DNA of 51,463 nt from Patescibacteria group bacterium (GTDB taxonomy: Bacteria > Patescibacteriota > Doudnabacteria > UBA920). Of this stretch, positions 7,249 to 43,292 are shown in pieces. A program made the position numbers and the translations under genes. The stretch is from positions 1-51,463 of the forward strand of contig JAMDAY010000029.1 in the NCBI GenBank assembly GCA_023484515.1, in the 5' to 3' direction. The notes under the pieces were generated by a model that ran no database searches, had not been told where the DNA came from, and saw nothing but the letters and a program-made list of their open reading frames with translations. The stretch's first letter is position 1. Every line of letters begins with the position of its first letter.

Positions 7249-7579
7249 AATTTATATTTAACATTTTCTGTTGCAATAGACGCAATTATTTCCTTATACT
7301 TACTGACATTTTTTATTCTTATAATATAGATAAAACAATAAAAAATTTTTATTTGATCGGATAAGCAACTTTATTTATTATCCCTATGGTTTAATCCTTT
7401 TTTCATTACACGTCCACAATTAATTAAAAGTATTTATCGAGGCGCTATTTCTGCAATATAACTATTTGTGATTTTAACCGCAATTGTAACATTTATTGCG
7501 GTTAAAATAAATTTGCGTTATTTACAAGCAAGCCTGCTTTCCAAGTATGAATTAACTCGCCCGTCAAAGTATTTAGAGA

Positions 7580-7732
7580 TGGTCTCATAACCTGCTTTTA
7601 AAGCGAAAATTCAGAATTTCGAGCAGATTGGCGCAAATAAATTTTGACGTTTAACTGAAGTTAAGCGGAAAAATTTTTTGCGGCAAGATGCCGAAATTGT
7701 GAAATTGCAGCCAAAATGAGGTTATGAGACCA
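7580..7732. repeat. hairpin element E1 (153 bp) with 14-bp perfect terminal inverted repeats; homologous core to 43106..43274
   Basis: tggtctcataacct ... aggttatgagacca. The reverse complement of the core aligns along its length with E2 (cattttggctgcaatttca..atttcggcatcttg..cgctta...aaaatttattt..ccaatc.gct). Confidence 0.85.
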
Positions 7733-7764
7733 GCTCTAGCAAGATTATTAACCAAACAATGCTT

Positions 7765-18649: not shown

Positions 18650-21600
18650 TTATTCACTATAGTTTTGTTCAACAGGGACGCTGCCTGGCGCGACATTGGT
18701 TGTATTATTGGCAGGAGCGGTGCCGGTATCTGCGACGGGGTTATTAGACGCGCCTGCGCCGGATGCGGAACCGGGATCCGAAGTTGGGGTTGCAGAATTT
18801 AAATCCGGAGCCGGAGGCTGGGGTTTTTCAGTAGAGGCATCTAAAACTTCGCCGGAACCGACGCCGCCCGGATTAGCTTCTTTGACAGTCCCAGATGCCG
18901 TATCAACTTTTACATTAACGTCCTTGTCGGAACCCGTCGTATTTTCCCCTTTGGGATTATCCGCGCCAGCAGGAGCCGGAGGCTGGGAAGACACAATAAT
19001 CTCCGGCTGGAAAGCCGCCGCAGGTGCCACTTGAAGGTTAAAGGAAGATTGCCACTGCGTGTCCAGGGGCTGGGCCATGGCTATCCAGTCAAAAGTAATG
19101 TCAGAGGCTGCCGGCTTGCTGATTTGAATAGCAAAGCCGGTTTCTGTTTTGTCAGCCACGCCATAGAAGAAGTCAGGCAAGCCGTTAAAGCTTACCGTAA
19201 CTTTTGGCACGGTTAAGTAAGGCACGTTAAACGTCACAGCGGTTTGATTGTCCCCTTGCTTAATGGTAGCCGTGCCGGCCGTGTCCTTGCCTACGTTTAA
19301 GTGTCCTATTGTGGTTATGTCCCCTACCGCGTTGATGCTAAACAGCGTAGTGGTGGAATTCTGGATGGTGAGGACGTTCTGGCAATTATTGATGACGGAC
19401 ATCTGGGGCAGCCCCAGATGCCTGTCATCTGGGATGCATTCCAGGTTAGACAAAATGGAAACCGAACCGGAAGATGCCACCAAGAACCGGTCCTGCCCGT
19501 CTTTTTGGAGCTGGAGAATATTACCCGCCCCCATTTGATTGATTAAAAACGACAACGGCGTGTCCGTGGCATCCGCATTGGTTAATAATTTATCCGCACT
19601 GGCGTGCGTGCTTAACTGTCCGTCACTTTCGCCCAAAATAAACTTATTATTAATTACCTGGTATCCAAGCTTTACAAAGGCTAAAACAGTGCCGGCTGAA
19701 CCAAGGGTGGTGCTGGCCACTTCGGGATTGCCGTCAAAGTTTTCCAAAGCTTGCCCAATTACCTGGCCGGAGTGAGTCGCTTTCATGGCATAGCCCGGGA
19801 AATTTTTGGAAGCTGTCAGGTAATCGCCGGGCTTTATGTCGCCGTTCTCGTTGGTAACCTTAACCGGCACGCGTCCGGACAAGGCTACGGGAACATTGGT
19901 GGCATTGCCGAATTTTTCGGCTTTGAATCCGCCGAGCAAAATGCCGGGCTTGGTGGAAATTATGCCCAAAACCGCAGAGGTAGAAGAAGCCTTACCCACG
20001 TAAACCGGAAAATCGCCGCTGGCCGCCGCCACGTCGCCAGGCTCCAAAATTTCTTTGGTCGGATACTGTTCGGCCACGTCCACCCCGCCGACCACGGTGC
20101 CGTTGTTGGCATAAATCCGGCCCGCGGTATTGGCGCCGGTGCAGGAGTCGTCCGTGTCCACACACAGCCAGCCATTGGCAACCTGCACATTGCCGCCCGA
20201 TGCGGCCGACCCCACATGCAGCCTCTGTCCCGGTCCCGTGTTTCCAACACCTACGTTGCCGTTAGCGGCATCAATAGTTATCCTATCCGCATCCGAAGCT
20301 AAACCCGCTTTAATTCCTAATTTAGATGATAAGCGGTAAACGCCATAAGTATAGTTGTCCGGGGTATCCATCCAAATACCGGTAGCATCGCCGCCAGTAA
20401 AAATTGGCGCGGTAAACGATGCCCCGCCGTTAACAGACAATGGCTTGCCCGGATTTGTAACGCCAATCCCCACATTTCCGTTCGGCAGCACGGTAAATAA
20501 GGAATCACCCGAAGAGGAGGTAATGGTTAAGAGAGGTAAAGTGGGGTTAGCGCTAGAGCCTTGGAGGGACAAAAGGGAGGATGGAGATGTGGATCCAATA
20601 CCCATGTTCCCCGCTTGGGTCATACGCAGCAAAGAAGCGCCGGAAGTGGAGGAAATGTCAAAAGGATCTACGGTGGAAGCGCCGGTCACGGACAGGCGGG
20701 CTGCGGGAGAAGATGTGCCAATGCTGACATTGCCTTCGCCATATGGCTGTAGCAGCAGGTTTTGGTTGCCAACGCCCGTAACTCTTATTGCCGCGTCATT
20801 GCCTGTTTGCTGAATGCTGACATACTTTCCTCCGGTGCTGTCATAAATTTTCAGCATTTCATTGCTGGATCCGTCAAACAAAGCCAAAGCGCCGTTTTGC
20901 GGCTTAATATTCGTATAGTTGGCGTCAAAGCTGTCGGAAAAGCGCAAATTTCCGTTTAAGTAGATATCATTGCCGCCCACATTCAAATCCCCGCCCTGCA
21001 CGTCCAGCTTATACCCCGGACTTGTCGTCCCAATGCCGACGTTGCCAGAGCTTAATCTCATCGTTTCTATTGAACCGCCGCTATAAATAATAGTGTCATT
21101 CCATTGTCCCGATGCCAACAATACATGATTATCGGTGCTGGTTTTTAATATATCCCTGTATGATTCAACATTGTTAACTTTTGATTTAATAGCATAGTTA
21201 TTTTCCAGAGCAATATTACCATTATATACATGCAATAATTCTTGCGGACTCGTCGTCCCGATGCCGACATTACCGTTAGACAAGACAGTAAGCAAAGAAG
21301 ATCCGGAAGAGGAAGCAATGGTAAGCAATGGGATGGCGGGAGCGGTAGAGGTACCTTGGATAACCAGATTAGAAGAGGGGGAAGAAGAGTTAACGCCCAC
21401 CATGTAGCCAAAGTTATTATAAACGGCATTGGTAGAAGAAGCCCAACCGATTGACGAGCCGGAGCCTACCCCGCAAGAACCAGCCTGCAAGAGTCCAGCA
21501 GCCGATGTACCAATGCACGACTGGCCTAAAAGGCCAGTCAGTGCCAAAGAAGTAGCCGTTGCCTCGCCAGCGGAAGAAACCATAAACTGGTTATTATTCC

Positions 21601-24600
21601 CCACCGTCAACAGCTGGCTCGGACTCGTTGTCCCGATGCCGACATTGCCGTTCTCTACTATTAACCCATAATTCATCCCGCCACTAACAGCACTAAAGTA
21701 ACCACCGATATTAGTCCCTGCCCCGCTACCACCGGCATAACCATATACACCATAACTTGTCCCGCTGTTTGCCCCTGTAGCTACGCCTTGCACACCATAA
21801 TTTGTTCCACCAGTAGCACCGTTATAACCATAGACCCCTGTAGACCCAGCCACACTAACGGACGATTTGAACTGACCGGCAACATATAATTTAATCCCTG
21901 CTGAATCTGCCGCGCCAACTCCCGTATTCCCCGTTGTCGTATTCACAAACAACGCCGGTGTGCTTCCTGTCGCCACGTTTAGATTCCCCCACACGTCTAG
22001 TTTGGCAGCCGGCGAAGTCGTCCCAATGCCGACATTACCATTCCCCTGAATAACCATTTTTACTGTCTCCCCATTTCCAAGCGCTTCATCTGAAGCAGTG
22101 AAAGCCAAACCTCCTGCCCACCCGCTACCCGAACCGGTTGAACTATAACCGTAAATTCCACCCAAAGCCTCAGAGCTGCCTGAAGCCCACTGTCTTACAA
22201 ACTTGACTCCATGGGAAGGTTTTGTCACATCATATCCCCAACCTGAACTTTCCGTAGATTGATTTACATCTAAGGTTAATTGGCCGGAAAGAACACTATT
22301 CGTCGCTGTAGCCTGATTAACATAAAGTTGAGATGATGGAGTGGTGGTGCCAATACCGACGTTGCCTGAGCTGGTAATTATTACGTTTGCCCCCGACGCC
22401 GCACCTGCGGCCTGTCCAAACTTAATGTTGCCAGAGGTTCTAAAACTGACATCTCCTGACAAGTCCCCGGCGTTCAAACCGGTAAATAATATTGAACCTG
22501 TTGGTTCCGTATTTTGAAAATATATGTCTGAAGAGGCAGGCAAAAGCCTAAAATACGCCGTGGATGTATCGTTGCCAATCACCAGTCCTTTATTGCCCGG
22601 CACAACAACCGTTCCATCATTATTCGACCCGCTTCCTTCAATCCTAATCGCTCCATTCACATCTAACTTGGCATTCGGACTGCTCGTCCCGATGCCCACG
22701 TTGCCGGTTGTTGCATTTAACCAGCTATTTCCATTTGAATCCAACCGTATTGCTTGAGTGTTTCCATTGTAAATATCGAAGGAGTATTTAGCCTTGTCAC
22801 CATCTTGGTACATTCGCATAGTGCCGCCACTACTAGAGCCGGGAATAATATACAATATGCTACCGTATTGCCCATCAACAGTTCCAATTTGGCCGCCGTA
22901 ATTATTTCCCGTTATGGTAACACCAGCACTTGTGGCAAGAGGGCCTTGCACCTGCAATCTTGCGCCTGGACTCGTCGTCCCGATGCCGACATTACCGTTA
23001 GACAAGACAGTAAGCAAAGAAGATCCGGAAGAGGAAGCAATGGTAAGCAATGGGATGGCGGGAGCGGTAGAGGTACCTTGGATAACCAGATTAGAAGAGG
23101 GGGAAGAAGAGTTAACGCCCACCATGTAGCCAAAGTTATTATAAACGGCATTGGTAGAAGAAGCCCAACCGATTGACGAGCCGGAGCCTACCCCGCAAGA
23201 ACCAGCCTGCAAGAGTCCAGCAGCCGATGTACCAATGCACGACTGGCCTAAAAGGCCAGTCAGTGCCAAAGAAGTAGCCGTTGCCTCGCCAGCGGAAGAA
23301 ACCATAAACTGGTTATTATTCCCCACCGTCAACAGCTGGCTCGGACTCGTTGTCCCGATGCCGACGTTGCCGTTGCCGAAATAAGAAGCGGTCGAGTTTA
23401 AAACCAGCGGCCGGCCGGTAAAGTTTCCGGAGGCGTCGTAGGCATTAAAGAAAGTGGAATTGCCGCTTTGCACTATCCGGACAGTACCGCCGGTTATCGC
23501 GGTGGTGTCTTGCAGCCGTATGACGCCGCCGGAAGACGCGCCGATGTGCAGCTGGTCTAACGGAGTGGTAATGCTGCCTATAGCCACGTTGGCGCCGAAC
23601 ACCGCCTGGGGGGTAGTGGAAGCGGATAACTGCAGGTACATCTGGCTGCCGGAGGTATTGTAAAAACTCGTCCGTTCGGAAGAAACGTCGGCCTGCAGCA
23701 CTTTGTTGGTGGCGCGGTTGATGTTAATGAACAACGGACTGATAAAATTATTGCCCGACTGGCCGATGGGCATGTACCGCAGGTACATTTCCGAGGTGGT
23801 GGCGGCATAGCCGGGATTGTAGTAGCTTGATTCCTGTCCCCAGAACAGCATCGGCTCGCTGGAGGTGGCGGGAGAAAAAATAGTATCCGACAGGTTATAC
23901 CCCCACCAGGACACGTCGCTGGCTCCGGACTGGGAAGCCGGAAAAGTCCTGATGCTGTAACCGGCGTCGGGAGCGGTATCCGTCGGGAACTGGATGACCC
24001 GGTTCACGCGTATGGTGCCGTTCACATCCAACTTGTACGCCGGACTCGTCGTCCCAATGCCCACGTTCCCACTCGGCAGCACGGTAAACAAAGTATTGCC
24101 GGAAGAGGAGGCAATGGTTAACAGAGGGACGGAAGGATTAGTGGAAGTTCCTTGAATGGTGAGGTTGGAAGAAGGAGAAGAAGAGCCTATGCCCACATTG
24201 CCGGTCAAGTAATATATATCATTGCCAGAAGTGGTCCACTGGGAACCAATATAAGGGGAACCGTTTACGTAAAACGAGGAGGCATTTACAATGCCGTTAA
24301 CATCCAGGGCAAAAGCGGGGGAAGAAGTCCCAATCCCCACCCTGGTATTGCCCGTATCCACGAACAAAGCGGCAACCGACGAAGTCGCTACATTCAAATT
24401 ACCCCAAATGTCCAATTTCGCCGACGGACTCGTCGTCCCAATCCCAAGATTGCCGGCTTGCGTCACGCGCAGCAAGGAAACGCCGGAAGTGGAGGAAATA
24501 TCAAAGGGATCTATAGCCGAAGCGCCGGTAACGGATAAGCGGACTGCTGGCGATGAGGTGCCAAGGCCAAGGCGGTGATTGGCGAGGTCATAAAAGAAAT

Positions 24601-26125
24601 TGGAATTGTCTTCGTCCATGCCGCTTGCCCCCTGGAAGATAACAGACCCCGGAGTTAAGCCGGGGTTAATGCCCGTTACGGTCAAATTGGCAATGGTGGT
24701 AGAACCGCTTAAGGTTGTTTCCCCGCTCACAGCCAGGCTGGCGATTGCGGTAGTTGCAAGCGAAGCGGTACCATTTACCATAAGCGGGCCGCTAAAAGTT
24801 GCCGTGCCAGCCGTAAGCTTGGTATTAACGCTGGCAGTGTCCGTAATCAAATCCAGTGACGATAAGTGGGTAATGCCGGCCAGGCTTCCGGGAACCGTGT
24901 TGCTGTTGCTTGTCGGTTGGACAAAGCTAATTAAGCCGCCGCCGTTAATGCCTGCCGCGCCGGGATCCCCTTTGTCCCCCTTGTCCCCTTTTTCGCCTTT
25001 AAACTTTCCTTCGTCCAAATACTGGTTCAAGCGCTGGCCAATAAGCGAATAAATTATGTCCTGGTCCTGGCTTAAAACCCTGGTAATGCTTTGTTGGATA
25101 ATGGTTGTTGAAGCTTGCCGTCCAAAATTCCCGTTTTGAACATTTTCCAAAAGTTGGTTGTTTTTCGGCGTATTGCTATCTTTGAATATATACCAAATTG
25201 TTTCTCCCCAAGGCGCTATTTTATTATTTGGAATTAGGCCTGCCCACAAAACAGATGCCGCAAATCCGGTAATGGAAATTATTACTGCCAGCGCCAAGCC
25301 AAGTTTGCTAAACTTAGGCTGCTGCCGGAAGCTGCCGTAAAGTTTGCAAAGGCTCAATGTGGAAAAAGCGCTTAAGTTTTCCTTTTCCGATCCGTGCTGA
25401 AATGATTTTTGAGCGTTTTCGTGAAAAAGAAAATTAGATATAAAACGATTTTTTAGCAAATCTTCTTTCGCTGGTTCGGGAACGCTTAAAACCGCGGGTG
25501 GTGTTTTTCCTAAAATTCCTTCCGCTAAAAAGCCCTTGCCTTTTACTTGCCCTTTAAAGCCTTCCCCATTAGCCATGCTTTCGGTTCCCGCCGGGGCCGG
25601 GGCGAAAGAATGCCTGTCAACATTCTGCAATTCAATTTTTGACCGGAGCTGCTCCGACTTTTCCTGTATTTGCCTGTGCGAATTTTCCAATTCCAAAAGT
25701 CCCTGGGAAATCTTGTCAACCCGTTGTTCCAAGCTCTGTAATATTTCCTGCCTTAAATTGCTTAGACGCGGTTCGCCATGGCCAGACTGGGACTGCTGCG
25801 ACAAATTTTCTGCTGCCATTGGCTCGTTATTTGCCGCGCCCTGGTTGGCATTATTTTTTTGGGAATTTAAAACCGCAGCCGGTTCAATATGTACGGGAAG
25901 TTTTACCCCTGTTCCGGAAGAGATTCCACCAATCTCATTGCCATTCTCAACCGCAAACTCGTCTAAAGCCTTTTTTGTGGTTACCCAATTTCTGCCCACC
26001 TTGAAACCTTTAAGCCTTTCAGAGCGGCATAAAAAACTAAGGTAATCCTGGTGATATCCCGTTAATTTGCTTGCTTCGGCAAGCGAAATAATATTATCTG
26101 AATTTTGTTTAAACTGAATATTCAC
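18650..26125 (-). CDS. giant HTH-TM-collagen-like-'GIGTTSP' repeat fibre protein (2491 aa)
   Basis: HTH-like SLAEASKLTGYHQDYLSFLCRSERLKGFKVGRNWVTTKKALDEF; TM LGLALAVIISITGFAASVLWAGLIP; GEKGDKGDKGDPGAAGING; about 20 NVGIGTTSPxxKLDV-type repeats. Confidence 0.9.
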   Translation of the reverse strand: MNIQFKQNSDNIISLAEASKLTGYHQDYLSFLCRSERLKGFKVGRNWVTTKKALDEFAVENGNEIGGISSGTGVKLPVHIEPAAVLNSQKNNANQGAANNEPMAAENLSQQSQSGHGEPRLSNLRQEILQSLEQRVDKISQGLLELENSHRQIQEKSEQLRSKIELQNVDRHSFAPAPAGTESMANGEGFKGQVKGKGFLAEGILGKTPPAVLSVPEPAKEDLLKNRFISNFLFHENAQKSFQHGSEKENLSAFSTLSLCKLYGSFRQQPKFSKLGLALAVIISITGFAASVLWAGLIPNNKIAPWGETIWYIFKDSNTPKNNQLLENVQNGNFGRQASTTIIQQSITRVLSQDQDIIYSLIGQRLNQYLDEGKFKGEKGDKGDKGDPGAAGINGGGLISFVQPTSNSNTVPGSLAGITHLSSLDLITDTASVNTKLTAGTATFSGPLMVNGTASLATTAIASLAVSGETTLSGSTTIANLTVTGINPGLTPGSVIFQGASGMDEDNSNFFYDLANHRLGLGTSSPAVRLSVTGASAIDPFDISSTSGVSLLRVTQAGNLGIGTTSPSAKLDIWGNLNVATSSVAALFVDTGNTRVGIGTSSPAFALDVNGIVNASSFYVNGSPYIGSQWTTSGNDIYYLTGNVGIGSSSPSSNLTIQGTSTNPSVPLLTIASSSGNTLFTVLPSGNVGIGTTSPAYKLDVNGTIRVNRVIQFPTDTAPDAGYSIRTFPASQSGASDVSWWGYNLSDTIFSPATSSEPMLFWGQESSYYNPGYAATTSEMYLRYMPIGQSGNNFISPLFININRATNKVLQADVSSERTSFYNTSGSQMYLQLSASTTPQAVFGANVAIGSITTPLDQLHIGASSGGVIRLQDTTAITGGTVRIVQSGNSTFFNAYDASGNFTGRPLVLNSTASYFGNGNVGIGTTSPSQLLTVGNNNQFMVSSAGEATATSLALTGLLGQSCIGTSAAGLLQAGSCGVGSGSSIGWASSTNAVYNNFGYMVGVNSSSPSSNLVIQGTSTAPAIPLLTIASSSGSSLLTVLSNGNVGIGTTSPGARLQVQGPLATSAGVTITGNNYGGQIGTVDGQYGSILYIIPGSSSGGTMRMYQDGDKAKYSFDIYNGNTQAIRLDSNGNSWLNATTGNVGIGTSSPNAKLDVNGAIRIEGSGSNNDGTVVVPGNKGLVIGNDTSTAYFRLLPASSDIYFQNTEPTGSILFTGLNAGDLSGDVSFRTSGNIKFGQAAGAASGANVIITSSGNVGIGTTTPSSQLYVNQATATNSVLSGQLTLDVNQSTESSGWGYDVTKPSHGVKFVRQWASGSSEALGGIYGYSSTGSGSGWAGGLAFTASDEALGNGETVKMVIQGNGNVGIGTTSPAAKLDVWGNLNVATGSTPALFVNTTTGNTGVGAADSAGIKLYVAGQFKSSVSVAGSTGVYGYNGATGGTNYGVQGVATGANSGTSYGVYGYAGGSGAGTNIGGYFSAVSGGMNYGLIVENGNVGIGTTSPSQLLTVGNNNQFMVSSAGEATATSLALTGLLGQSCIGTSAAGLLQAGSCGVGSGSSIGWASSTNAVYNNFGYMVGVNSSSPSSNLVIQGTSTAPAIPLLTIASSSGSSLLTVLSNGNVGIGTTSPQELLHVYNGNIALENNYAIKSKVNNVESYRDILKTSTDNHVLLASGQWNDTIIYSGGSIETMRLSSGNVGIGTTSPGYKLDVQGGDLNVGGNDIYLNGNLRFSDSFDANYTNIKPQNGALALFDGSSNEMLKIYDSTGGKYVSIQQTGNDAAIRVTGVGNQNLLLQPYGEGNVSIGTSSPAARLSVTGASTVDPFDISSTSGASLLRMTQAGNMGIGSTSPSSLLSLQGSSANPTLPLLTITSSSGDSLFTVLPNGNVGIGVTNPGKPLSVNGGASFTAPIFTGGDATGIWMDTPDNYTYGVYRLSSKLGIKAGLASDADRITIDAANGNVGVGNTGPGQRLHVGSAASGGNVQVANGWLCVDTDDSCTGANTAGRIYANNGTVVGGVDVAEQYPTKEILEPGDVAAASGDFPVYVGKASSTSAVLGIISTKPGILLGGFKAEKFGNATNVPVALSGRVPVKVTNENGDIKPGDYLTASKNFPGYAMKATHSGQVIGQALENFDGNPEVASTTLGSAGTVLAFVKLGYQVINNKFILGESDGQLSTHASADKLLTNADATDTPLSFLINQMGAGNILQLQKDGQDRFLVASSGSVSILSNLECIPDDRHLGLPQMSVINNCQNVLTIQNSTTTLFSINAVGDITTIGHLNVGKDTAGTATIKQGDNQTAVTFNVPYLTVPKVTVSFNGLPDFFYGVADKTETGFAIQISKPAASDITFDWIAMAQPLDTQWQSSFNLQVAPAAAFQPEIIVSSQPPAPAGADNPKGENTTGSDKDVNVKVDTASGTVKEANPGGVGSGEVLDASTEKPQPPAPDLNSATPTSDPGSASGAGASNNPVADTGTAPANNTTNVAPGSVPVEQNYSE
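21246..21643. repeat. 398-bp intragenic repeat, copy 1
   Basis: Appears identical by eye to 22968..23365 (ggactcgtcgtcccgatgccgac ... ggactcgttgtcccgatgccgac). Confidence 0.9.
22968..23365. repeat. 398-bp intragenic repeat, copy 2
   Basis: Appears identical by eye to 21246..21643. Confidence 0.9.
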
Positions 26126-27063: not shown

Positions 27064-30000
27064 TTAGGGCATCACCAGGAAAAACGGATTGGTTTGGTAT
27101 TGTCCCAAATAAGGATAATACGAATTATTAACTCCCGCCATTTCTTCCAAAACCACATTCCCTTGGCTATACTGGCCCAAATAAGGATAATATACGTTGC
27201 TTAGGTCTACCATTTCTCCTAATACTAAACCATTTTGGCTTTCAACACTGCCTACTGCTACAAAGCCAGATGGATTGTTCTGGTTGTTATATTCCGTGGC
27301 TATCCAGGATTCGGACCTGGCTGTTTTGGAAACCCGCACTTCATCCATGCTGCCGTCTGCCAAAGAGGCTGAATACAATCGCGAACCGCCTAAAGTCAAA
27401 AGCTCGTCGTAGCGCACGGGCTGGTAACTAAAGTAACTGCTATAATTAACCGCCTTGCCGTTAACATAAAGATTCTGGTTAGGGTAACCGGCGGAATTAT
27501 AAGTTCCCGCAATATGATACCACTGGTTAGCGTCCAAGGTGGTGGCATAATCCGTACTTACCCTGCCATAACTGGGCAAGAAATTGGAAATGCTTAATTT
27601 GCCGGTAGCGCTGCTATAGTAAAGCGAAGGGCCGGCGGAATCGTTATAATTAACCGACTCTATCAGGCGTTTAACAGCGGCTGATCCTGTCTGCCAGGTT
27701 GAGGCGGGCTTAAACCATAACTCATAAGTAAAGCTGGTGTCGCGGTCGCCCGCAAAAGCCGTACTGGAAACCTTTTGGCTGGAACCGTCAAAGGTTAAGG
27801 CCTGACCGATCTTACCGGAGGCAAGCCCGTTGCTTCCCGACATGCTGCGGCTATTTTTGCTGTCAGACAAGTTATTACCGTGATAAACCGCCCTAAAATC
27901 ACCGTCCCATACTCCAGCTTTGTCTTGTTGGTCGGAAGCGTAACCGTTGCCGTAATAAACATAAAATGCGGTATCATTGGAAGAAGACAAGGAAGGAAGC
28001 TTAACCCAAGCCGTTAATTGGCCGGTTGAGGAATTATAGCTATCCAGCTCATGGAATAGTTTGGTTTTATTGTCCTGAGATACGAATACAATGTCAGTAC
28101 CGTCAGTCTTGCCAACCTTGCCGCCGTTAACGGTTGACTTTAAGTCATTGGAAGACAGGCTAACCAAGACCGGGAAATTAGAAAGGTTGCCAGCAACTTG
28201 ACCGTGGTTAACGGTTAATTTTTGGCGATAATTCCAAGAGGCATTATACCAGTCAGCCAGGGTTTCCGAATTATTCACCGTCACCGTTACCGAGGCAGTA
28301 GCCGCATTGCCTGCGGCATCCCTGGCTACGGCGGAAATAGTATGGGAGGCATTAGACAGTGTCTTGGTATCCAAGGCCAGTTCGTAAGGGGCAGCAGTGT
28401 CTTCAGTGCCTTGGTTTGTCCCGTCCACCTTAAACTGCACGCCGGCTACTCCGACATTGTCGGTAGCGGAAGCAGAAAGGGTAATACTATTGGAAACCGT
28501 TGAGTTATTGGCCGGAGAGGTTATGGAAACGGTAGGAAGGGTGGTGTCGGAAGGGTTGGAACCGCCTGCCTGCTTTGTCCATAAAACTTGGGCAATGGCC
28601 AAATCGGTATTGTCATAATATTCCACCTTAACCAAATGGCCGCCTGCTGTCAAAGCCTTGGTTACTTTATAGGTAGTTGGTGCTTGGTCTTTCCATTGGT
28701 CAACCACCGGAATACCGTCCACGTAAACTCTCACGCCGTCATCAGCAGTCACGACAAAATCATAGTTGGCATTCTCAAAAGTAAAGTTGCCTTGCCAGCG
28801 GACGGAGAAATGGTCAGCCGGAATGGTCGAGTCGGGCTTGCCAGTGCTCCAGTTAAAATTAATGGAGTTGTCCGTGCGTGACGAGCCAAAGTTGGTTAAG
28901 TTCTGGTCAGTATAATAACAGCCGGTAAAAGCATTGGTGGCGGGAGAGGGGCAGGACGAAGGAACAACAGGATTATTCACCGTCACCGTCACGCTGGCGG
29001 TAGCCGCATTGCCTGCGGCATCCCGGGCTGTGGCGGAAATGGTGTGGGAGGCATTGGACAGAGTTTTGGTATCCAAGACCAGCTCATAAGGAGCAGCGGT
29101 ATCTTCACTGCCCTGGCTTACCCCGTCCACCTTAAACTGCACGCCGGCTACTCCGACATTGTCGGAAGTGGAAGCAGAAAGGGTAATACTATTGGAAACC
29201 GTTGAATTATTGGCAGGAGAAGCTATGGAAACGGCAGGAGGGGTGGTGTCGGAAGCTGCTTGTTTGGTAAAGGCGGCAGAGACTATATTGCTGTCCGTCA
29301 TGCCTGATTTAACCGCTTTAGCCTTAACAGTGGCCGACTGGGTTAAAGTGATGGGAGAGGAATACACCAGGGAAGGATTGGAGCCGTCCGTAGAATAATA
29401 GATGGTAGCGCCGGAAGTAGCCGAAGACAAAGTTACGGTCTGGGCGGAAGTGAACGTGCCGCCATTGGGGGAAATGGCGGGGTCGGAGACTTGGGAGGGA
29501 GCGGAACCGGCAGGAGTAATTTCAATTGCATTAACCATGGCATTGTCAGACATCGTAGTAAACTGCAGGCTAATTTTACCGTCAATCACGTTAACGGTAA
29601 AAGTCTTGTCTAAAGCCTTGTTTATTCCACCGGCCTGGGCGAAAATATCAAAGCTGGTCAAAATCTGGCTGTTATTTAACGAAACGTTGAACAGCCGATT
29701 ACCTGCTCCGGCCCAATAAGTTTCCGCAAACTTTAACTTAACTTGATAAGCGCCATTAGGAACATTAAAATTATAGGCAAAGCCGCCGTAACGGGAAGTC
29801 TGATATAAGGCCGAAGCATTAGTATTGGCAATGGCAGAAGATACGCCGTAGTTGTTACCGCCGGAGTAGTTCTTGTCCGCACTCCAGACAACACCGGCAG
29901 GATCGGTATAAGCAGATCCGCCGACATTGACGCGATAGGTATCGGGAATCGGGTTAATTACCGTAACCGCCGCCGAATCCGTGGCTATATTGCCGGATGT

Positions 30001-33000
30001 ATCGCGCACAACCACGGAAATGGTATGAGAGCCATTAGCGACGGAAGTGGAATCCCAAGAAACGGCATAAGGCACAGCGGTATCTTCCGAACCGATATTA
30101 ACCCCGTCCACTTTAAACTGCACGCCAGCTACTCCGACATTGTCGGAAGCGTTTGCGGCGAGATTAACCATTCCAACAACAGTAACGCCTGCGGCTGGCG
30201 CGGTCAAATCTACAGTTGGCGGAACCGTTTCTGACGAAATGGATTTAGTAAAGCCCGCGCTAACTACATTGCTGTCTGTCATGCCGTTTTTAACCGCCTT
30301 GGCCTTGACTGTGGCAGATTGGGTTAAGGTAACAGGGGAAGAATAAACCAAGGAAGGATTGGAGCCGTCCGTAGAATAATAGATGATAGCGCCGGAAGTG
30401 GCCGAAGAAATGGTAACTGTCTGGGAAGAAGTGAAAGATCCGCCGTTGGGAGAAATGACAGGATCGGACACGGATTGGGGAACAGGACTTAACGTAAAGG
30501 TTTTCGGGGAGCCCGGCAACAAGACATTGGAAGCGCCAGTAGCGTCATTTAAGTCTATGCCGTAAGCGTAAACCTTATGAGCCTTTCCGTCTTTGTAGCT
30601 GTCAGGAATGGAAAAGTTAAAGGCATGATTACCAATGTCGCTCCTATTATCCCCTGCCGTAACGCCGATCGGGCTAACATTGGAACCTGGTTGACCGTCA
30701 AAATACAGATGCACGGAAATAGCCTGGCTTTCGTTGTCCGGATCCTTGGCCCAGCCATAAACCGTGCCGTCGTTCTTTACCCCGTCCAGGCTGCCAATAG
30801 GTTTTTGGTTGGAAGAAGGAGGCGTGGTGGTCTTTTTGACCCAATTAACCCGGGCGGTAGCGCCGCCGGATTGTTCAAAATATTCCACCTTTATCTCATG
30901 GACGCCTGCGGTCATGGCCTTGTCAGCCGTATAAGTTACTCCGGTCTGCGGGTACCACTTGTCAATTACCATTTGATTATCTACGTAAACCCTAATGCCA
31001 TCGTCCGGAGTGGCGGAAAAGGTATATAAGGAACCATCAAAGTCAAAGTTGCCAACCCAACGGACAGAGAACCCATCCGTAGGCATGCTGCTGTCCGGAC
31101 TGCCATAGCTCCAACTGAAATCCACGGCCGGATCCATGCGCATCAGCTTTAAGGAATCAAAATTGGTGCCATTATAATAGCAACCGACAAAAGCGCCGTT
31201 AACCGGCTGATTGCAAGTCAATTGCGGATTATTAACCGTTATGGTAATGGAGGACTCAGCTTTATTGCCTGCAGCGTCCCTGGCAATAGCCTTAATGATA
31301 TGGGACTTGCCGCTTTCCAGGCCAAAAGTATTCAAGGAAGTATTAAAGGGCGCAACAGCCAATTCGGGGCTGGCCGCAGAACCGTCAACTTCAAACATTA
31401 CGCTGACCATGCCTGAATTGTCAGCGGCCGAAGCTTTAAGGGGAATAATTCCGGAAACGGTCTGGCCATTAGCCGGAGAAGTAATGGAGACTGTCGGCTG
31501 AACCGTATCGCCCGAATTGCTGCCGGCCGCTGCCTTTTGGATGATAAATGCGCCAAAGGTAGGGAAAGTGGTCGGCGGCGCATAATCCCAGCCCATAGGC
31601 TTGACCACTGTCCAGCCGTTCATAGGAATGGAAATGGGAGAGCCGTTATATACGCCGGTAATTTTTTCGTTCCAATAGTTTTGAGCGTTGCGGATTTCGT
31701 AAGTATCGCCAGGCTGCAAGCCAATATTGGAAACATCCACGGGTACGCTAACATTTTGGTTCCAGTTATAGATGGTAATATTAGCCCTGCCGGTATCGTA
31801 TTTGTTGGGACGCACAAAGACCTTTACGCCGGTGGGCCGGGAAGTGTAATAAATATTATTGGGATGAGTGGAGCTGTTTACGCCGCTGACGCTGCCGTAG
31901 AAGGTGTTGCCCGTAACAGTAGCCGAGCCCTGGTAATCCAGTTCAAAAGCAACAGCCTGGTCGCTGGCCACGTAGTTATCCTGCACTACCGGGTTTAACG
32001 CGCCGTTATATTTAACAGAAATTCCGCGATTTTCAGGGTTACCCACCGGATAATAAGTGTAGTTGTTTTTCACCACCAAATTTTGCATGGAGGATTCCAG
32101 GGTACCTAAAATAAGGTTTGCGGCCGGCTGGGCAGACAGGTTGGCAACCATGCCGCTGTCAAACGAAGTATTGCCTTCAAAGGTCATGTTGTCGGCACGC
32201 GCGTCAGGATTGGTACCGTAAGCCTGGATACCATGCCCGAAGTTGTCAAAGATAATATTATCCGTGTAATGCTTAGTGCCATAAGCGTTCTGCGTATAAA
32301 TGCCATGGCCATGGCCGCGGTCGCCCAACCCCCCTTCGTAGCCGTCATTGTAAATTAAGTTGCCGTAAATTTCCGTATCAGTATTGCCGATGGCGATCCA
32401 GGCGCTGTAGCCGGTCAGGTCGTGGATAACAAGGTTGATCATCTTGATGTCAGGACCGTAAGTTTCCACGGCCTTGGCGCGATTGGCCGCACCGCCCAGG
32501 CGGGTATTGGTGCACGAAGACATAATTTCAAAGCCCCAGTACCAAGCATGGGCGCCATTAACCCTGAACGCATCATCCGAACCATCGCAGCCGCCGTCAA
32601 TAGCCGCATGTTCACCCGGATATTGGCGCAAAATGACCGGCTTGCTTGCGGAGCCGGTAAGGTTGCTGGTATAAAGCCCGTTATAAATGCCGCCGCGCAT
32701 CCAAACCGTATCGCCGGGCTGGATCCTGCCATTGGCATTATTAGCAAGCACACTGCGCAAATCCCAAGGACTGTTAATGCTGCCATTATTGGCGGACAGT
32801 CCACTGGGAGACACATACCACTGATTGCCGCTTGTTGACCCGCCCGGCACTATGCTAAAAGCAATGACATAATCGTCACCATTGGCATTATGCTGAGCTG
32901 AATTATCTTGGCAGCGGATATAATAAGCATAGCTGCTACCGTCTTGCAAACCGCTTACCGCAAAACTAAAATTGTTGCCCGATGTATTGGCGGCCTGGCC

Positions 33001-34941
33001 GGTCATAGAGCTAAAACCGGTGCTATAAGTGCTATAGCGGCAAGTTGCGGGTTCGTTGGTGGAAAAAGTAACGTTAGCGGAAGTGGTTCCCGCAGGCAGC
33101 GAGCCAGAAGGCAAGCCGCCGGAAATGGCCGGCGGAACCAAGTCAGTCACATTAAAAGCCACGGGCGCGGCAGTGGTGGTATTACCGGCTGCATCGCGCG
33201 CCACCGCAGTTACTATATGGATGCCTGGGGACAAAGGCGCAGTATCCAAGGTTGTGGAATAAGGAGGCCGGTTGTATTCGGCCCGTAGATTCTGGCCGTC
33301 CAGCTTTAGCTGCACCCCCAAAATACCGTTATTGTCGCTGGCTTCGGCCGTAACTTGCACGCTTGAGCCCACCACCTGGTTTGGCGTAGGAGAAGTAATC
33401 ACAACCTGTGGCGGAGTGGTATCAACCGAAGGATTGGAAACCATTCCAGTAGGGACGACTACGAAAACGTTGAATTCCTTGTCCGTGTGCGAAAGGGTCG
33501 TACATGTGCCAGAACAAATGGGCTGGGTAATTTGCGTGTTAGTGGTTGGAATGGCGACCGATCCCCCGCTATACGTTCCGCTTGCTATGGGAGCGCCGTA
33601 ATAGTTTTGCACGTCGCGGATCTCGTACTGCGCGCCCACGCTTAAAACATTGGATAAATCCACGTTTACGCTGTTCAGGCGATCCCAATTGAATATCGTA
33701 ATATTGGCCCGCCCCTGTTCGTATTCATTGGGCCGCACGAATACTTTGGTGCCGGTCGGCCGGGTACCATATTGGACATGGGTATTGCCCGCGTAACCAG
33801 ACAGGTAATTATACGGGGTGTTGGTATATTGAAAATCCACCGATCCGTTAAAAGTATTGCCGGTCAAGGTCAAATTTCTGGTGGCGGAAAACAAGGTGAT
33901 GCCGGAAATATAGTTGTCGGTAACTACCGGATTGGTCGTCCCTCCGGCGTTATAGCCGATATTCAGCGATTGCCCGGTAGAAAGCGGCGTAAAGTAGGAA
34001 TAGTTGTTCCTGATAATGTTGTTTTGGTTGGTTATGCCTCCTCCCACTAGAATGTTCCTTACGTCACCTCCGGCAAGCGCCCCGTTATTAAAGTAGGAAT
34101 TGCCTTCAATGGTAAAGTTATTGATCCAAGCGCCGTCGCCCGATCCATAAAACTGGGAGCCGTGATCCGCGCCGTTGAAGATGATATTGTCGGCCACGCG
34201 GGTGGAAACATAGCGCTCGGCCATGTAAGTGCCATGGCCGTGGCCGCGGTCAGGAGCGACCCATCCGTTGTTATAAACAATGTTGCCATAGAACTCCATA
34301 TTGCCCGAAGTAGAGTAGTTGTCCGAATAGCCCAGGCCCGTTCCCGTGTCGTGCACCACCAGGTTGATGAATTTCAAGTTGGTGCCGAAGACGGAAACGC
34401 CACTGGCCCTGCCGTCGTCGGGGTTGGATCCGGAATTGGGCGAATAGCGGATAGGGTTGGAGTTTTTGATTTCAAAACCCCAGAACCAGGTATAAGAGCC
34501 GTAAGCTTCCAAAGTCGCCGGGGTCAGGTAAATTGAATTGGCATCAATCGTAGCCCGTTCTCCCGGATATTGCCTCACAACAATTGGAGACCCCTCTATG
34601 CCGTTTAAACGGCTTTCGTATTTGCCGCTGTAAGTGCCGCCGCGCAACCAAATGGTGTCGCCCGGCTTGACCGCGCCGTTAGCCCCGCTTAAGGCGGTGC
34701 GCAAATCCCACGGATTATTTATGCTCCCGTTACCCGAGGCGGATCCGTTAGGAGATACATACCACTGGATGCCAGTCGTCACCCCCAACACCCTTCCTGG
34801 ATTGCGGTGCGAAACGGCTGAAAAATCAGCCGCAAAACTGTCAATATAAGATATAGTCTCCACTGTCTGGGAAACCATAAAAGCGCCTGCTAATATAGCA
34901 AGAACGCCAGCTCCAAAGAGCTTGTAGATATGCTTATTCAT
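27064..34941 (-). CDS. giant secreted adhesin-like protein (2625 aa): two beta-helix regions, Ig-like, PA14-like, chitobiase-C-like, malectin-like, DUF2341 and LamG-like domains
   Basis: N-terminal TM/signal; duplicated QWYVSP.G....SIN.PWDLR...QYPGE; PA14-like FSVRW.GNF.F....Y.F....DDG.RVYVD; malectin-like YRVNVGGSAYTD; DUF2341 WNYRQKLTV; LamG-like GQALTFDGSSQKV. Confidence 0.88.
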   Translation of the reverse strand: MNKHIYKLFGAGVLAILAGAFMVSQTVETISYIDSFAADFSAVSHRNPGRVLGVTTGIQWYVSPNGSASGNGSINNPWDLRTALSGANGAVKPGDTIWLRGGTYSGKYESRLNGIEGSPIVVRQYPGERATIDANSIYLTPATLEAYGSYTWFWGFEIKNSNPIRYSPNSGSNPDDGRASGVSVFGTNLKFINLVVHDTGTGLGYSDNYSTSGNMEFYGNIVYNNGWVAPDRGHGHGTYMAERYVSTRVADNIIFNGADHGSQFYGSGDGAWINNFTIEGNSYFNNGALAGGDVRNILVGGGITNQNNIIRNNYSYFTPLSTGQSLNIGYNAGGTTNPVVTDNYISGITLFSATRNLTLTGNTFNGSVDFQYTNTPYNYLSGYAGNTHVQYGTRPTGTKVFVRPNEYEQGRANITIFNWDRLNSVNVDLSNVLSVGAQYEIRDVQNYYGAPIASGTYSGGSVAIPTTNTQITQPICSGTCTTLSHTDKEFNVFVVVPTGMVSNPSVDTTPPQVVITSPTPNQVVGSSVQVTAEASDNNGILGVQLKLDGQNLRAEYNRPPYSTTLDTAPLSPGIHIVTAVARDAAGNTTTAAPVAFNVTDLVPPAISGGLPSGSLPAGTTSANVTFSTNEPATCRYSTYSTGFSSMTGQAANTSGNNFSFAVSGLQDGSSYAYYIRCQDNSAQHNANGDDYVIAFSIVPGGSTSGNQWYVSPSGLSANNGSINSPWDLRSVLANNANGRIQPGDTVWMRGGIYNGLYTSNLTGSASKPVILRQYPGEHAAIDGGCDGSDDAFRVNGAHAWYWGFEIMSSCTNTRLGGAANRAKAVETYGPDIKMINLVIHDLTGYSAWIAIGNTDTEIYGNLIYNDGYEGGLGDRGHGHGIYTQNAYGTKHYTDNIIFDNFGHGIQAYGTNPDARADNMTFEGNTSFDSGMVANLSAQPAANLILGTLESSMQNLVVKNNYTYYPVGNPENRGISVKYNGALNPVVQDNYVASDQAVAFELDYQGSATVTGNTFYGSVSGVNSSTHPNNIYYTSRPTGVKVFVRPNKYDTGRANITIYNWNQNVSVPVDVSNIGLQPGDTYEIRNAQNYWNEKITGVYNGSPISIPMNGWTVVKPMGWDYAPPTTFPTFGAFIIQKAAAGSNSGDTVQPTVSITSPANGQTVSGIIPLKASAADNSGMVSVMFEVDGSAASPELAVAPFNTSLNTFGLESGKSHIIKAIARDAAGNKAESSITITVNNPQLTCNQPVNGAFVGCYYNGTNFDSLKLMRMDPAVDFSWSYGSPDSSMPTDGFSVRWVGNFDFDGSLYTFSATPDDGIRVYVDNQMVIDKWYPQTGVTYTADKAMTAGVHEIKVEYFEQSGGATARVNWVKKTTTPPSSNQKPIGSLDGVKNDGTVYGWAKDPDNESQAISVHLYFDGQPGSNVSPIGVTAGDNRSDIGNHAFNFSIPDSYKDGKAHKVYAYGIDLNDATGASNVLLPGSPKTFTLSPVPQSVSDPVISPNGGSFTSSQTVTISSATSGAIIYYSTDGSNPSLVYSSPVTLTQSATVKAKAVKNGMTDSNVVSAGFTKSISSETVPPTVDLTAPAAGVTVVGMVNLAANASDNVGVAGVQFKVDGVNIGSEDTAVPYAVSWDSTSVANGSHTISVVVRDTSGNIATDSAAVTVINPIPDTYRVNVGGSAYTDPAGVVWSADKNYSGGNNYGVSSAIANTNASALYQTSRYGGFAYNFNVPNGAYQVKLKFAETYWAGAGNRLFNVSLNNSQILTSFDIFAQAGGINKALDKTFTVNVIDGKISLQFTTMSDNAMVNAIEITPAGSAPSQVSDPAISPNGGTFTSAQTVTLSSATSGATIYYSTDGSNPSLVYSSPITLTQSATVKAKAVKSGMTDSNIVSAAFTKQAASDTTPPAVSIASPANNSTVSNSITLSASTSDNVGVAGVQFKVDGVSQGSEDTAAPYELVLDTKTLSNASHTISATARDAAGNAATASVTVTVNNPVVPSSCPSPATNAFTGCYYTDQNLTNFGSSRTDNSINFNWSTGKPDSTIPADHFSVRWQGNFTFENANYDFVVTADDGVRVYVDGIPVVDQWKDQAPTTYKVTKALTAGGHLVKVEYYDNTDLAIAQVLWTKQAGGSNPSDTTLPTVSITSPANNSTVSNSITLSASATDNVGVAGVQFKVDGTNQGTEDTAAPYELALDTKTLSNASHTISAVARDAAGNAATASVTVTVNNSETLADWYNASWNYRQKLTVNHGQVAGNLSNFPVLVSLSSNDLKSTVNGGKVGKTDGTDIVFVSQDNKTKLFHELDSYNSSTGQLTAWVKLPSLSSSNDTAFYVYYGNGYASDQQDKAGVWDGDFRAVYHGNNLSDSKNSRSMSGSNGLASGKIGQALTFDGSSQKVSSTAFAGDRDTSFTYELWFKPASTWQTGSAAVKRLIESVNYNDSAGPSLYYSSATGKLSISNFLPSYGRVSTDYATTLDANQWYHIAGTYNSAGYPNQNLYVNGKAVNYSSYFSYQPVRYDELLTLGGSRLYSASLADGSMDEVRVSKTARSESWIATEYNNQNNPSGFVAVGSVESQNGLVLGEMVDLSNVYYPYLGQYSQGNVVLEEMAGVNNSYYPYLGQYQTNPFFLVMP

Positions 34942-36096: not shown

Positions 36097-39000
36097 TTAT
36101 TCTATTTCCACTTCTTCATCATCCGGCGGATTGGAAGATTGAATGGTTTGATTGCCTAATTTGGGAATGACCAGGGTAATCCCTACGCGCATAGTCCGCG
36201 GATTCGGCACTTTTTCCGCGTTGGCCGCCTGGATGTATATCCATTTAGTGCCGTCGCCATAATACCGCTGAGCCAAGCCCCACAAGGTGTCCCCTCTTTT
36301 TACCGTATATGTGCCCAAAGGCTGGATAGGAGAGCCTAATTCCGCCTTTATGCGCTGCAATTCCGCAGCCGGTGTTGCTGCGCCGGCGGAAGATCCGATT
36401 GTTGCGCCGGCCGGAACTCCAGGGATGACTAAGGTAATGCCTACGCGCATGGTCCGCGGATTTTTTACCTTGTCCGTATTGGCTTCCAAGATTTCCCTCC
36501 ACCTGCTCCCGTCTCCGTAAAACCGTTGGGCTATGGACCACAGCGTGTCGCCTCTCTTAACCGTATAATAAACCGTTTGGGACGGCGGGGTTGCCTGGTT
36601 TTGCCCTTCGGGCGGCACATAGCCCTGAGAGGCGGGATAGCCTGGAGGCATCTGCAGACCTCCCAAGGTTCCCTGATTATTTAAATTATTTAGCTGTTGC
36701 CGCAATTGCTGGTTTTCCTGCAGTAACCTGTTATATTCATTTAAGTATGATGTCCCTCCCCCTCCTGAATTGTTCTGCTGGGCGCGGAGAGCTGCGAGCT
36801 GTTGTTCCAATTGGGCAATCCTTTGCTGCAAGCTGGCCACATTATCTTCCTGACCCGTAATGATAATGGTAAAGGCCTTTGTGGCATAGACTTCCTCACT
36901 TGCTTCATCTTCCACCCTGACAGTAAAAGTATAGCTTCCCGTTGCGGTAGGCGTGCCGGAAATTGTGCCGGTTTCGCTGTCCAGGTCCAAGCCGTCGGGC
37001 AATTCGCCGCTTTCCATGGACCAGACTTTGGTGCCGGTAATGCCGGAAGCCTGGAGGGTTTGACTGTATGGGGAATTCACTGTCCCATTTGCCAAGGTTG
37101 CCGTGGTTATGGCGGCTGTTTGGTCGGAAGCGCTGGTTATTGTCAGAGTAAAGCTTTTAACAGCATAAACCTCCTCGTTTGCTTCATCTTCCACCCTAAT
37201 GGAAAAACTATAACTGCCGGCTGCGGTCGGCGTGCCGGAAATTGTGCCGGTTTCGCTGTCCAGGTCCAAGCCGTCCGGCAATTCGCCACTTTGCATGGAC
37301 CAGACTTTGGTGCCGGTGATGCCATTGGCAGACAACTGCTTGCTGTAAGCCGTGCCGACTTTGCCGTTGGGTAAAGATGTGGTGGTGATAGTGACCGTGC
37401 CTTCTGCCTCTATAACAATGGTAAAAGTTTTCGTAGCGGAAACGGACTCATCTTCACTATCTGCCACCTGCACGGTAAAGGTATAACTTCCCGATTCTGT
37501 AGGCGTACCCGAGATTACGCCGGTTTCGCTGTCCAGTTCCAAACCGCCCGGCAACTCACCCACTTCCATTGACCAAACCTTGTCACCACTGATGCCTGTG
37601 GCTGCCAAAGTTTGGCTGTAAGCCGTGCCGACGGTGCCATCCAATAGGCTAGAAGTGGTAATGCTAGCCTGGGCGGTAGCAGCTGAAGAAATAATAACGG
37701 TAAAATTCCTGGAAGCCGTGTTGGTGCCGTCTGTAACCTCAACGGTAAAGCTGTAGCTGCCGGCCGTGGTCGGCGTGCCGGTTATGGCGCCGGTGGAAGA
37801 ATTGATGTTCAAGCCGGCCGGCAGGGTGCCGGTGGAAACCGTCCAGACTTTGGTGCCGGTAATGCCGGAAGCCTGGAGGGTTTGGCTGTAAGCCGTGCCG
37901 ACTTTGCCGTTAGGCAGGGAAGCCGTGGTTATGGACGCGGTTCCGGAAGCGTCAATTACCAAAGTAAAGTTCTTGGTGGCGGAAACTGACGGATTGGCGG
38001 CATCGGCCACTTTAATCGCAAAGCTGTAGCTGCCGGCCGTGGTCGGCGTGCCGGTTATGGCGCCGGTGGAAGAATTGATGTTCAAGCCGGCCGGCAGGGT
38101 GCCGGTGGAAACCGTCCAGACTTTGGTGCCGGTAATGCCGGAAGCCTGGAGGGTTTGGCTGTAAGCCGTGCCGACTTTGCCGTTAGGCAGGGAAGCCGTG
38201 GTTATGGACGCGGTTCCGGAAGCGTCAATTACCAAAGTAAAGTTCTTGGTGGCGGAAACTGACGGATTGGCGGCATCGGCCACTTTAATCGCAAAGCTGT
38301 AGCTGCCGGCCGTGGTCGGCGTGCCGGTTATGGCGCCGGTGGAAGAATTGATGTTCAAGCCGGCCGGCAGGGTGCCGGTGGAAACCGTCCAGACTTTGGT
38401 GCCGGTAATGCCGGAAGCCTGGAGGGTTTGGCTGTAAGCCGTGCCGACTTTGCCGTTAGGCAGGGAAGCTGTGGTTATGGACGCGGTTGTACCGGTAGTT
38501 ATTGTGACTGCGGTTCCGCCATTGGGCAAAGCCGTAAAATTCCCGCCATGGTCGTCCTGCGCGGCATGGGCTCGGTAGCTGACAACCTTATAAGTCCCTG
38601 GAACCAGGTCTGCGGTAACCAAATGGTCGGCGCTGGCTCCTTGCTGCCAATTTAACACCGTGCTGGTAGTGCCGTTAACCTGAACTTGCACGTCAAAGTA
38701 TACATTATTTAGGCTGGAAGGATTCGGGCTGGTAAAAGTTGCCTTATAAGAATCTCCAACTTTTACGCTAGCCTTATCAAACGTCAGGCCGGTAATCTGA
38801 TAGGCAGTGCTTTCTGTCACCTTAATGGTCAAATTTTTAACGGCCATAACGTTACTGTCGCTGACTAAGGCGGCCCTGACGGCAAAAGTATAAGTGCCAG
38901 CGGCGGTCGGAGTGCCTGATATGACGCCGGTGGTGGAAAGAGACAAGCCGGGCGGCAGGCTGCCGCTGTTGGACCATGTTACGGCCTGATTGTTAAAGCC

Positions 39001-43027: not shown

Positions 43028-43105
43028 AGCTAACTTTTGATAAATAAATTATAGCACAACCTTCCCTGGTTGGCAAAATTCTGGATATTTATGGACATTT
43101 CAAAA

Positions 43106-43274
43106 GTCTGTTGCCGAATGCCATTTTGGCTGCAATTTCAGTATTTCGGCATCTTGGCCAAAATAATTTTTTCCGCTTACCTCGGATCCAGTCCGAGGTA
43201 AACATTAAAATTTATTTATACCAATCCGCTTGGAATTCCGAAATTTCGCCTTAAAAGCGCATTCGGCAACAGAC
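43106..43274. repeat. hairpin element E2 (169 bp) with 16-bp perfect terminal inverted repeats; homologous core to 7580..7732
   Basis: gtctgttgccgaatgc ... gcattcggcaacagac; core cattttggctgcaatttcagtatttcggcatcttggcc...; apical stem ttacctcgga/tccgaggtaa. Confidence 0.88.
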
Positions 43275-43292
43275 CCATTCCGGATAACAGAG

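Follow-up and report, generated by a model that had tools for sequence, protein, structure and literature searches.

A probable DDE-type MITE family of Patescibacteria with a conserved, predicted folded core and apparently exchangeable ends

The common view of MITEs is of defunct remnants whose ends tie them to a single parent transposon and whose interior is free to vary, and Patescibacteria have reduced genomes with few known mobile elements. To our knowledge, Correia elements have a single TIR family, TA duplications and a distribution limited to one genus. We note that Correia, ERIC, RUP and BOX elements are covered in reviews of bacterial MITEs (PMC10969869 and PMC2229807), and that Correia/NEMIS transcripts are described (PMC10969869, PMC2649163) as folding into a hairpin that is cut or bound by RNase III. 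The movement of a core between end types is not described in the parts of PMC10969869 on which we draw, and a search of the open-access literature found no paper on MITEs in Patescibacteria/CPR. Here we analysed a 51,463-nucleotide stretch of a Patescibacteria genome (the window), and propose, with a probability that we put at roughly 0.7, that its element E1 is a palindromic DDE MITE of about 161 bp that is mobilised in trans, that keeps a fold on one strand and whose ends are exchanged by fold-back copying.

E1 occupies positions 7576-7736 (161 bp) and its relative E2 positions 43104-43276 (173 bp), and both have the family architecture, in which TIRs of about 18 bp flank a core of 125-137 bp. 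The left TIR of E1, of class C (GAGATGGTCTCATAACCT, 7576..7593, + strand), pairs with the right TIR (AGGTTATGAGACCAGCTC, 7719..7736, + strand), its complement with 1 mismatch, and the core between them (7594..7718, - strand) matches R2, a broader core model than our model R1 and one built partly from E1. A TA can be read directly on the left (7574..7575), as a putative TA target duplication, and on the right (7737..7738). The left TIR of E2, of class B (AAGTCTGTTGCCGAATGC, 43104..43121, + strand), has its outermost GG decayed to AA, which makes the target duplication of E2 unreadable; its right TIR (GCATTCGGCAACAGACCC, 43259..43276, + strand) is a 16-bp perfect complement of the left, and the apical stem of its core (43122..43258, + strand) is lengthened to TTACCTCGGATCCAGTCCGAGGTAA. 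The first-pass annotation had placed E1 at 7580-7732, correctly as to sequence and location but with about four outer bases missed on each side, and its view that E1 and E2 have a common core (of about 126 bp) and outer stems that are unlike between the copies and paired within each is confirmed. E2, which is absent from the model, scores 96.8 bits with R2 (E = 5.5e-17), while the 128 bits of the E1 core (E 4.2e-23) are expected by construction, E1 being in the seed. The E1 boundary is real, because a near-identical sister copy (C14:47208-47374, 99% identity over about 167 bp) sits in different flanks. Compared with shuffled sequences, the E1 fold has z = -7.9 as DNA and z = -8.8 and -12.0 for the RNAs of its two strands, and the E2 fold z = -7.7 and -9.0.

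Some features of the surroundings may be recorded here. A terminator-like inverted repeat (ATTTTAACCGCAAT ... ATTGCGGTTAAAAT) lies at 7474-7508, about 70 bp left of E1, and several class-B copies also adjoin strong G+C-rich hairpins. The apical loop has, to the eye, a tandem-GA or kink-turn-like look. On the - strand the window also holds giant open frames of 2491, 2625 and 1983 aa (18650-26125, 27064-34941 and 36097-42048), the second with Big_7, PA14, malectin and laminin-G domains and the third with repeated He_PIG domains and LysM; from sequence, all three probably encode surface-type proteins.

The 1.3-Mb host genome holds 18 near-full-length copies, one short copy and fragments, as found by BLAST with E1 and subsequent extraction, and in these copies three end classes surround one core. 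Class A ends (GAGG[CT][TG]GTCTAAAAACTC) occur in 11 copies with both ends, class B ends (GGGTCTGTTGCCGAATGC) in six copies including E2 and the short L024, and class C ends (GAGCTGGTCTCATAACCT) in E1, its sister and one truncated copy; class C recurs in G000 and G003, where most copies are TA-bordered. The core can be aligned across the host-genome copies, with a mean column identity of 84%, and the ends cannot. TIRs of about 18 bp were present in nearly all copies examined, a distant left-extended subgroup not aligning simply. The elements have the hallmarks of MITEs: they are multicopy and, at 161 bp for E1 and 173 bp for E2, lie within the 50-500 bp of such elements and are too short to encode a transposase.

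Homologues had been proposed for a search in the host genome and its relatives, and they proved to be widespread: R1 finds the core in 21/147 relatives and in 16/50 genomes of the order, and R2 finds it in 45 of 384 genomes sampled from the phylum; these carriers span 26 families and often hold numerous copies. Phage and plasmid records gave no match to the core, and none of six viral-contig pattern matches (0/6) fits the core model. A distant subgroup (L357, L358, L370, L372, L374, L375 and L391-L393, from G132, G205, G360, G119, G188 and other genomes) has, on the left, additional sequence (..TCTCACCGC..) that separates the TIR from the core. Three copies of G003 (L100, L101, L102) share a side-hairpin insertion, AGCTTTAATGGCAATCTGGCTCTGCCAGTTGCCAGCTTAACCCC, at a single position in an arm, which gives a three-way junction. 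In the single-contig, 984-kb genome G174 the core lies on the same strand in 6 of the 7 listed matches (L414-L420), possibly reflecting a replication-strand preference.

The family is mobile and non-autonomous, as had been suggested from E1 and E2, and it carries the signatures of DDE transposition. Duplications of 3 bp flank 9/12 class A copies (ATA, AAG, AAT, TTT, ATC, ATT, ACA, AAT, TCT; expected 0.98, 0/2000 shuffled flank pairings), and duplications of 5 bp flank 15/29 class B copies (for instance TTAAC, GTTAA, TATAT, ACTGA and ATCGC; expected 0.69, 0/2000 shuffled flank pairings), so that for classes A and B the TIR type predicts the length of the duplication. Distant members with AGACCTCT ends have 4-bp duplications in three cases (TATG, TCTT, CTAT), and two GAGCCTGTT copies have a TTA duplication. 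In class C, to which E1 belongs, and in class D, TA or TNA stands at both borders, which is indistinguishable from a target preference.

Similar ends are found on autonomous elements for classes A and B, always in other genomes. An IS in G086 has class-B-like ends (GGGGCTGTCGATAAAC / GGGACTGTCGCCAATA) and is flanked by a 5-bp duplication (TATTA); its 334-aa DDE transposase scores above the cut-off of NF033581 (NCBIfam IS5). In G135 and G115 class-B-like ends adjoin related transposase fragments. An IS1182 element of Zunongwangia has class-A-like ends (GAGGCTGTCTAAAAAG / GAGGCTGTCTGAAAAG) with no visible duplication, and G132 carries IS1182 5' ends with CAGGCTGTCTAAAAAC. It is because the duplications are specific to the TIR type, and because the ends are common to autonomous IS1182- and IS5-type elements, that we regard the family as a non-autonomous DDE element (MITE). 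No autonomous element with class C ends was found. The host genome contains no PF01609, IS1182 (NF033551) or G086-type transposase, so that the partner there would have been lost, be external or be of another kind. The first-pass annotation would have been overturned, by its own account, if E1 and E2 were just the ends of an autonomous IS whose TIRs are fixed. This holds only in part: TIRs there are, but they are not fixed, no autonomous element carrying the family core was found, and none of the ISs found contains the core as one of its pieces.

Several candidate partners were rejected. The search for an autonomous class-A element in the host genome gave only MITE copies and half copies; that for a class-B autonomous pair in 147 relatives gave only MITEs and tip-deletion derivatives of 37-81 bp; and the PF01609 genes of carrier genomes have unrelated ends. 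Class-A-ended MITEs with unrelated interiors occur in Thiosymbion, Hakubella and Zunongwangia. The loci from these three (L155-L232) are unrelated MITE families with a common end, GAGGCTGTCTAAAAAC, which have 3-bp duplications in Thiosymbion and 4-bp duplications in Hakubella. Tip-deletion derivatives, 37-105 bp long and reduced to the ends with a small remainder of the core, are seen at L138, L140, L134, L141-L143 and L024, and two of 73 bp in G014 have 5-bp duplications (TAAAT, ATTAT) and may thus still move.

Different end classes are attached to the same core. A tree built from 76 cores implies 12-14 switches between end classes, as compared to a maximum of four (<=4) for a history with one origin per class, although single switches are weak because the tree rests on few alignment columns, its bootstraps are rough and its strongly supported branches force only a minority of the changes. 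In distant genomes further end types occur, sometimes several per genome (G174, G360), and conservation is higher in the core than in the ends. The two ends of a single copy nevertheless match: class C copies in G003 have 1.57 mismatches between their ends versus 4.45 when shuffled (0/5000). All TIRs keep a loose GRR..CT.T pattern, and therefore drift and exchange may both occur; for some classes gradual end drift instead of exchange is possible.

The covariation signature of a selected structure, first claimed from E1 and E2, holds in 39 diverse cores from 12 genomes taken on the strand opposite to E2: 29 of the 40 predicted core pairs carry compensatory double-sided changes, the covariation score is 0.451 versus 0.150 +/- 0.008 for shuffled and 0.04-0.12 for slid controls, and 94.4% of cells pair versus 78.2% when shuffled. 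Asymmetric internal loops, CTGCAA opposite TTTCG and TCCGC opposite ACATC, are conserved phylum-wide, the latter surrounding the covarying apical stem, and in distant members the GCTGCAA/TTTCGC loop occurs a second time, inward. We conclude that the predicted rod fold of the core is under selection.

The fold also has a preferred strand, although the cells behind the covariation and the strand bias are not independent. For E1 the better-folding strand, on which G-U/G-T is favoured, is the + strand of the window, and the RNA folds of its two strands are -75.7 vs -60.1 kcal/mol; all of the cores (76/76) give the better RNA fold on the strand opposite to E2, in part because they have conserved loops and ancestry in common. 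When mismatches between left and right ends were scored without structure prediction, the terminal stems of a first set had G-U/G-T on the strand opposite to E2 versus the reverse in a ratio of 41:10, with the same direction in 10/11 genomes, and a second set, mostly of other families, gave 22:3, or 63:13 for both sets together. Core stems lean likewise (46:28), weakly and with pairs taken from both strands, and it is thus chiefly the terminal stems that carry the strand claim; the idea that wobbles in the core stems could by themselves give an RNA-specific signature was dropped, as counts were equal on the first fold and weak with both-strand pairs. Covariation, conserved loops and the G-U/G-T bias of one strand lead us to suggest that one folded strand is under selection; the bias may stem from single-stranded DNA, from an RNA transcribed by the element itself or from mutations specific to a strand left exposed.

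This leads us to the following scheme. An IS5- or IS1182-like transposase supplied in trans would recognise the ends and move the element, while the core would persist because a particular strand of the complete element, whether RNA or single-stranded DNA that becomes exposed, folds into a rod that, on our preferred reading, some factor recognises. One arm might pick up an end from another element, with the second arm copied to match by fold-back (palindrome) copying, and such matched exchange would keep both ends alike and let the core change transposase. The larger picture, in which a phylum-wide selfish hairpin of one folded RNA or ssDNA strand swaps ends and rides any DDE transposase present, is one that we advance tentatively and at somewhat less than even odds.

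Alternatively, the element might be a structured non-coding RNA with a function of its own, selfish or of use to the host, and passing transposases might spread it much as an IStron couples a ribozyme to an IS. Covariation and conserved internal loops would fit, as would the better-folding strand found in every core, ancestry being shared, and the excess of G-U-type departures on that strand. We nevertheless consider it unlikely, if a serious contender: the window has 0 Rfam covariance-model matches above gathering score, no promoter-like site was found inside E1, and single-stranded DNA would yield the same G-T bias. Gene orientation shows no bias either, the upstream gene being co-directional in 25/59 cases (host genome, G003, G174, G360 and G254), and a function embedded in the mRNAs of neighbours was set aside as unlikely for that reason.

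Less likely again is an ordinary MITE, in which the core is inherited filler, the arms are matched by fold-back template switching and the fold is functionless. Such a history would accommodate the A-type ends with unrelated interiors in Thiosymbion, Hakubella and Zunongwangia, the copies in which the two ends have been converted to a single variant (L005, L064, L068) and the existence of tip-deletion derivatives. It would not lead one to expect a core better conserved than the ends, or a one-strand G-U/G-T bias from a symmetric correction, and fold-back correction is not the sole force, because it would erase the internal-loop mismatches that persist phylum-wide.

We regard as very improbable the suggestion, made at the outset, that the core moves independently and inserts itself into the loops of palindromes that were already there, so that the outer stem would be target sequence. 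The stems do vary between copies, also between those of a single genome (G174, G360), and the IS1182-family element IS1272 is reported to target and replace inverted repeats (PMC5678879), but here the stems are TIRs common to many copies (one is common to 11 host-genome copies in 11 different flanks), duplications of 3, 4 or 5 bp lie outside them and follow stem type, and similar stems end autonomous IS elements elsewhere. Least credible of all is a REP/RAYT- or IS200/IS605-like element, likewise raised at first, whose single-stranded hairpin a Y1 transposase would move. It would suit a hairpin with strand asymmetry and, as judged on duplications and ends, conflicts with the target duplications and with GRR-type TIRs common to DDE elements.

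Returning to the trans-mobilised MITE with a folded strand that we favour, its TIRs are probably unlike the Correia TIR. As in Correia/NEMIS of Neisseria, these are short intergenic MITEs with TIRs, but the E1 family has a phylum-wide core, many TIR types and duplications of 3, 4 or 5 bp. ERIC, RUP and BOX are also short imperfect intergenic palindromes spread in trans (PMC2229807, PMC3049150), though in unrelated hosts and with no exchange of ends around a conserved core that we found documented. IStrons, which join a group I intron to an IS (PMC4227781), offer a possible parallel in the partnership of a folded nucleic acid with DNA-transposon ends, yet they carry a transposase and a self-splicing intron, neither of which was found in the E1 family. 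IS1272 resembles it in linking the IS1182 family to palindromic DNA, but replaces an inverted repeat without target duplication (PMC5678879), whereas the E1 family has duplications. With the IS1182 and IS5 families themselves the likeness is in the TIRs, to classes A and B, and in the 5-bp duplication of class B; the E1 family differs in having no transposase gene and an interior unrelated to the IS elements examined. The usual picture of a MITE is here inverted, the interior being conserved across a phylum and the ends exchangeable. A conserved core with swappable ends would represent a different route of persistence for a parasite of transposons, and Patescibacteria gain a common mobile element with a folded part.
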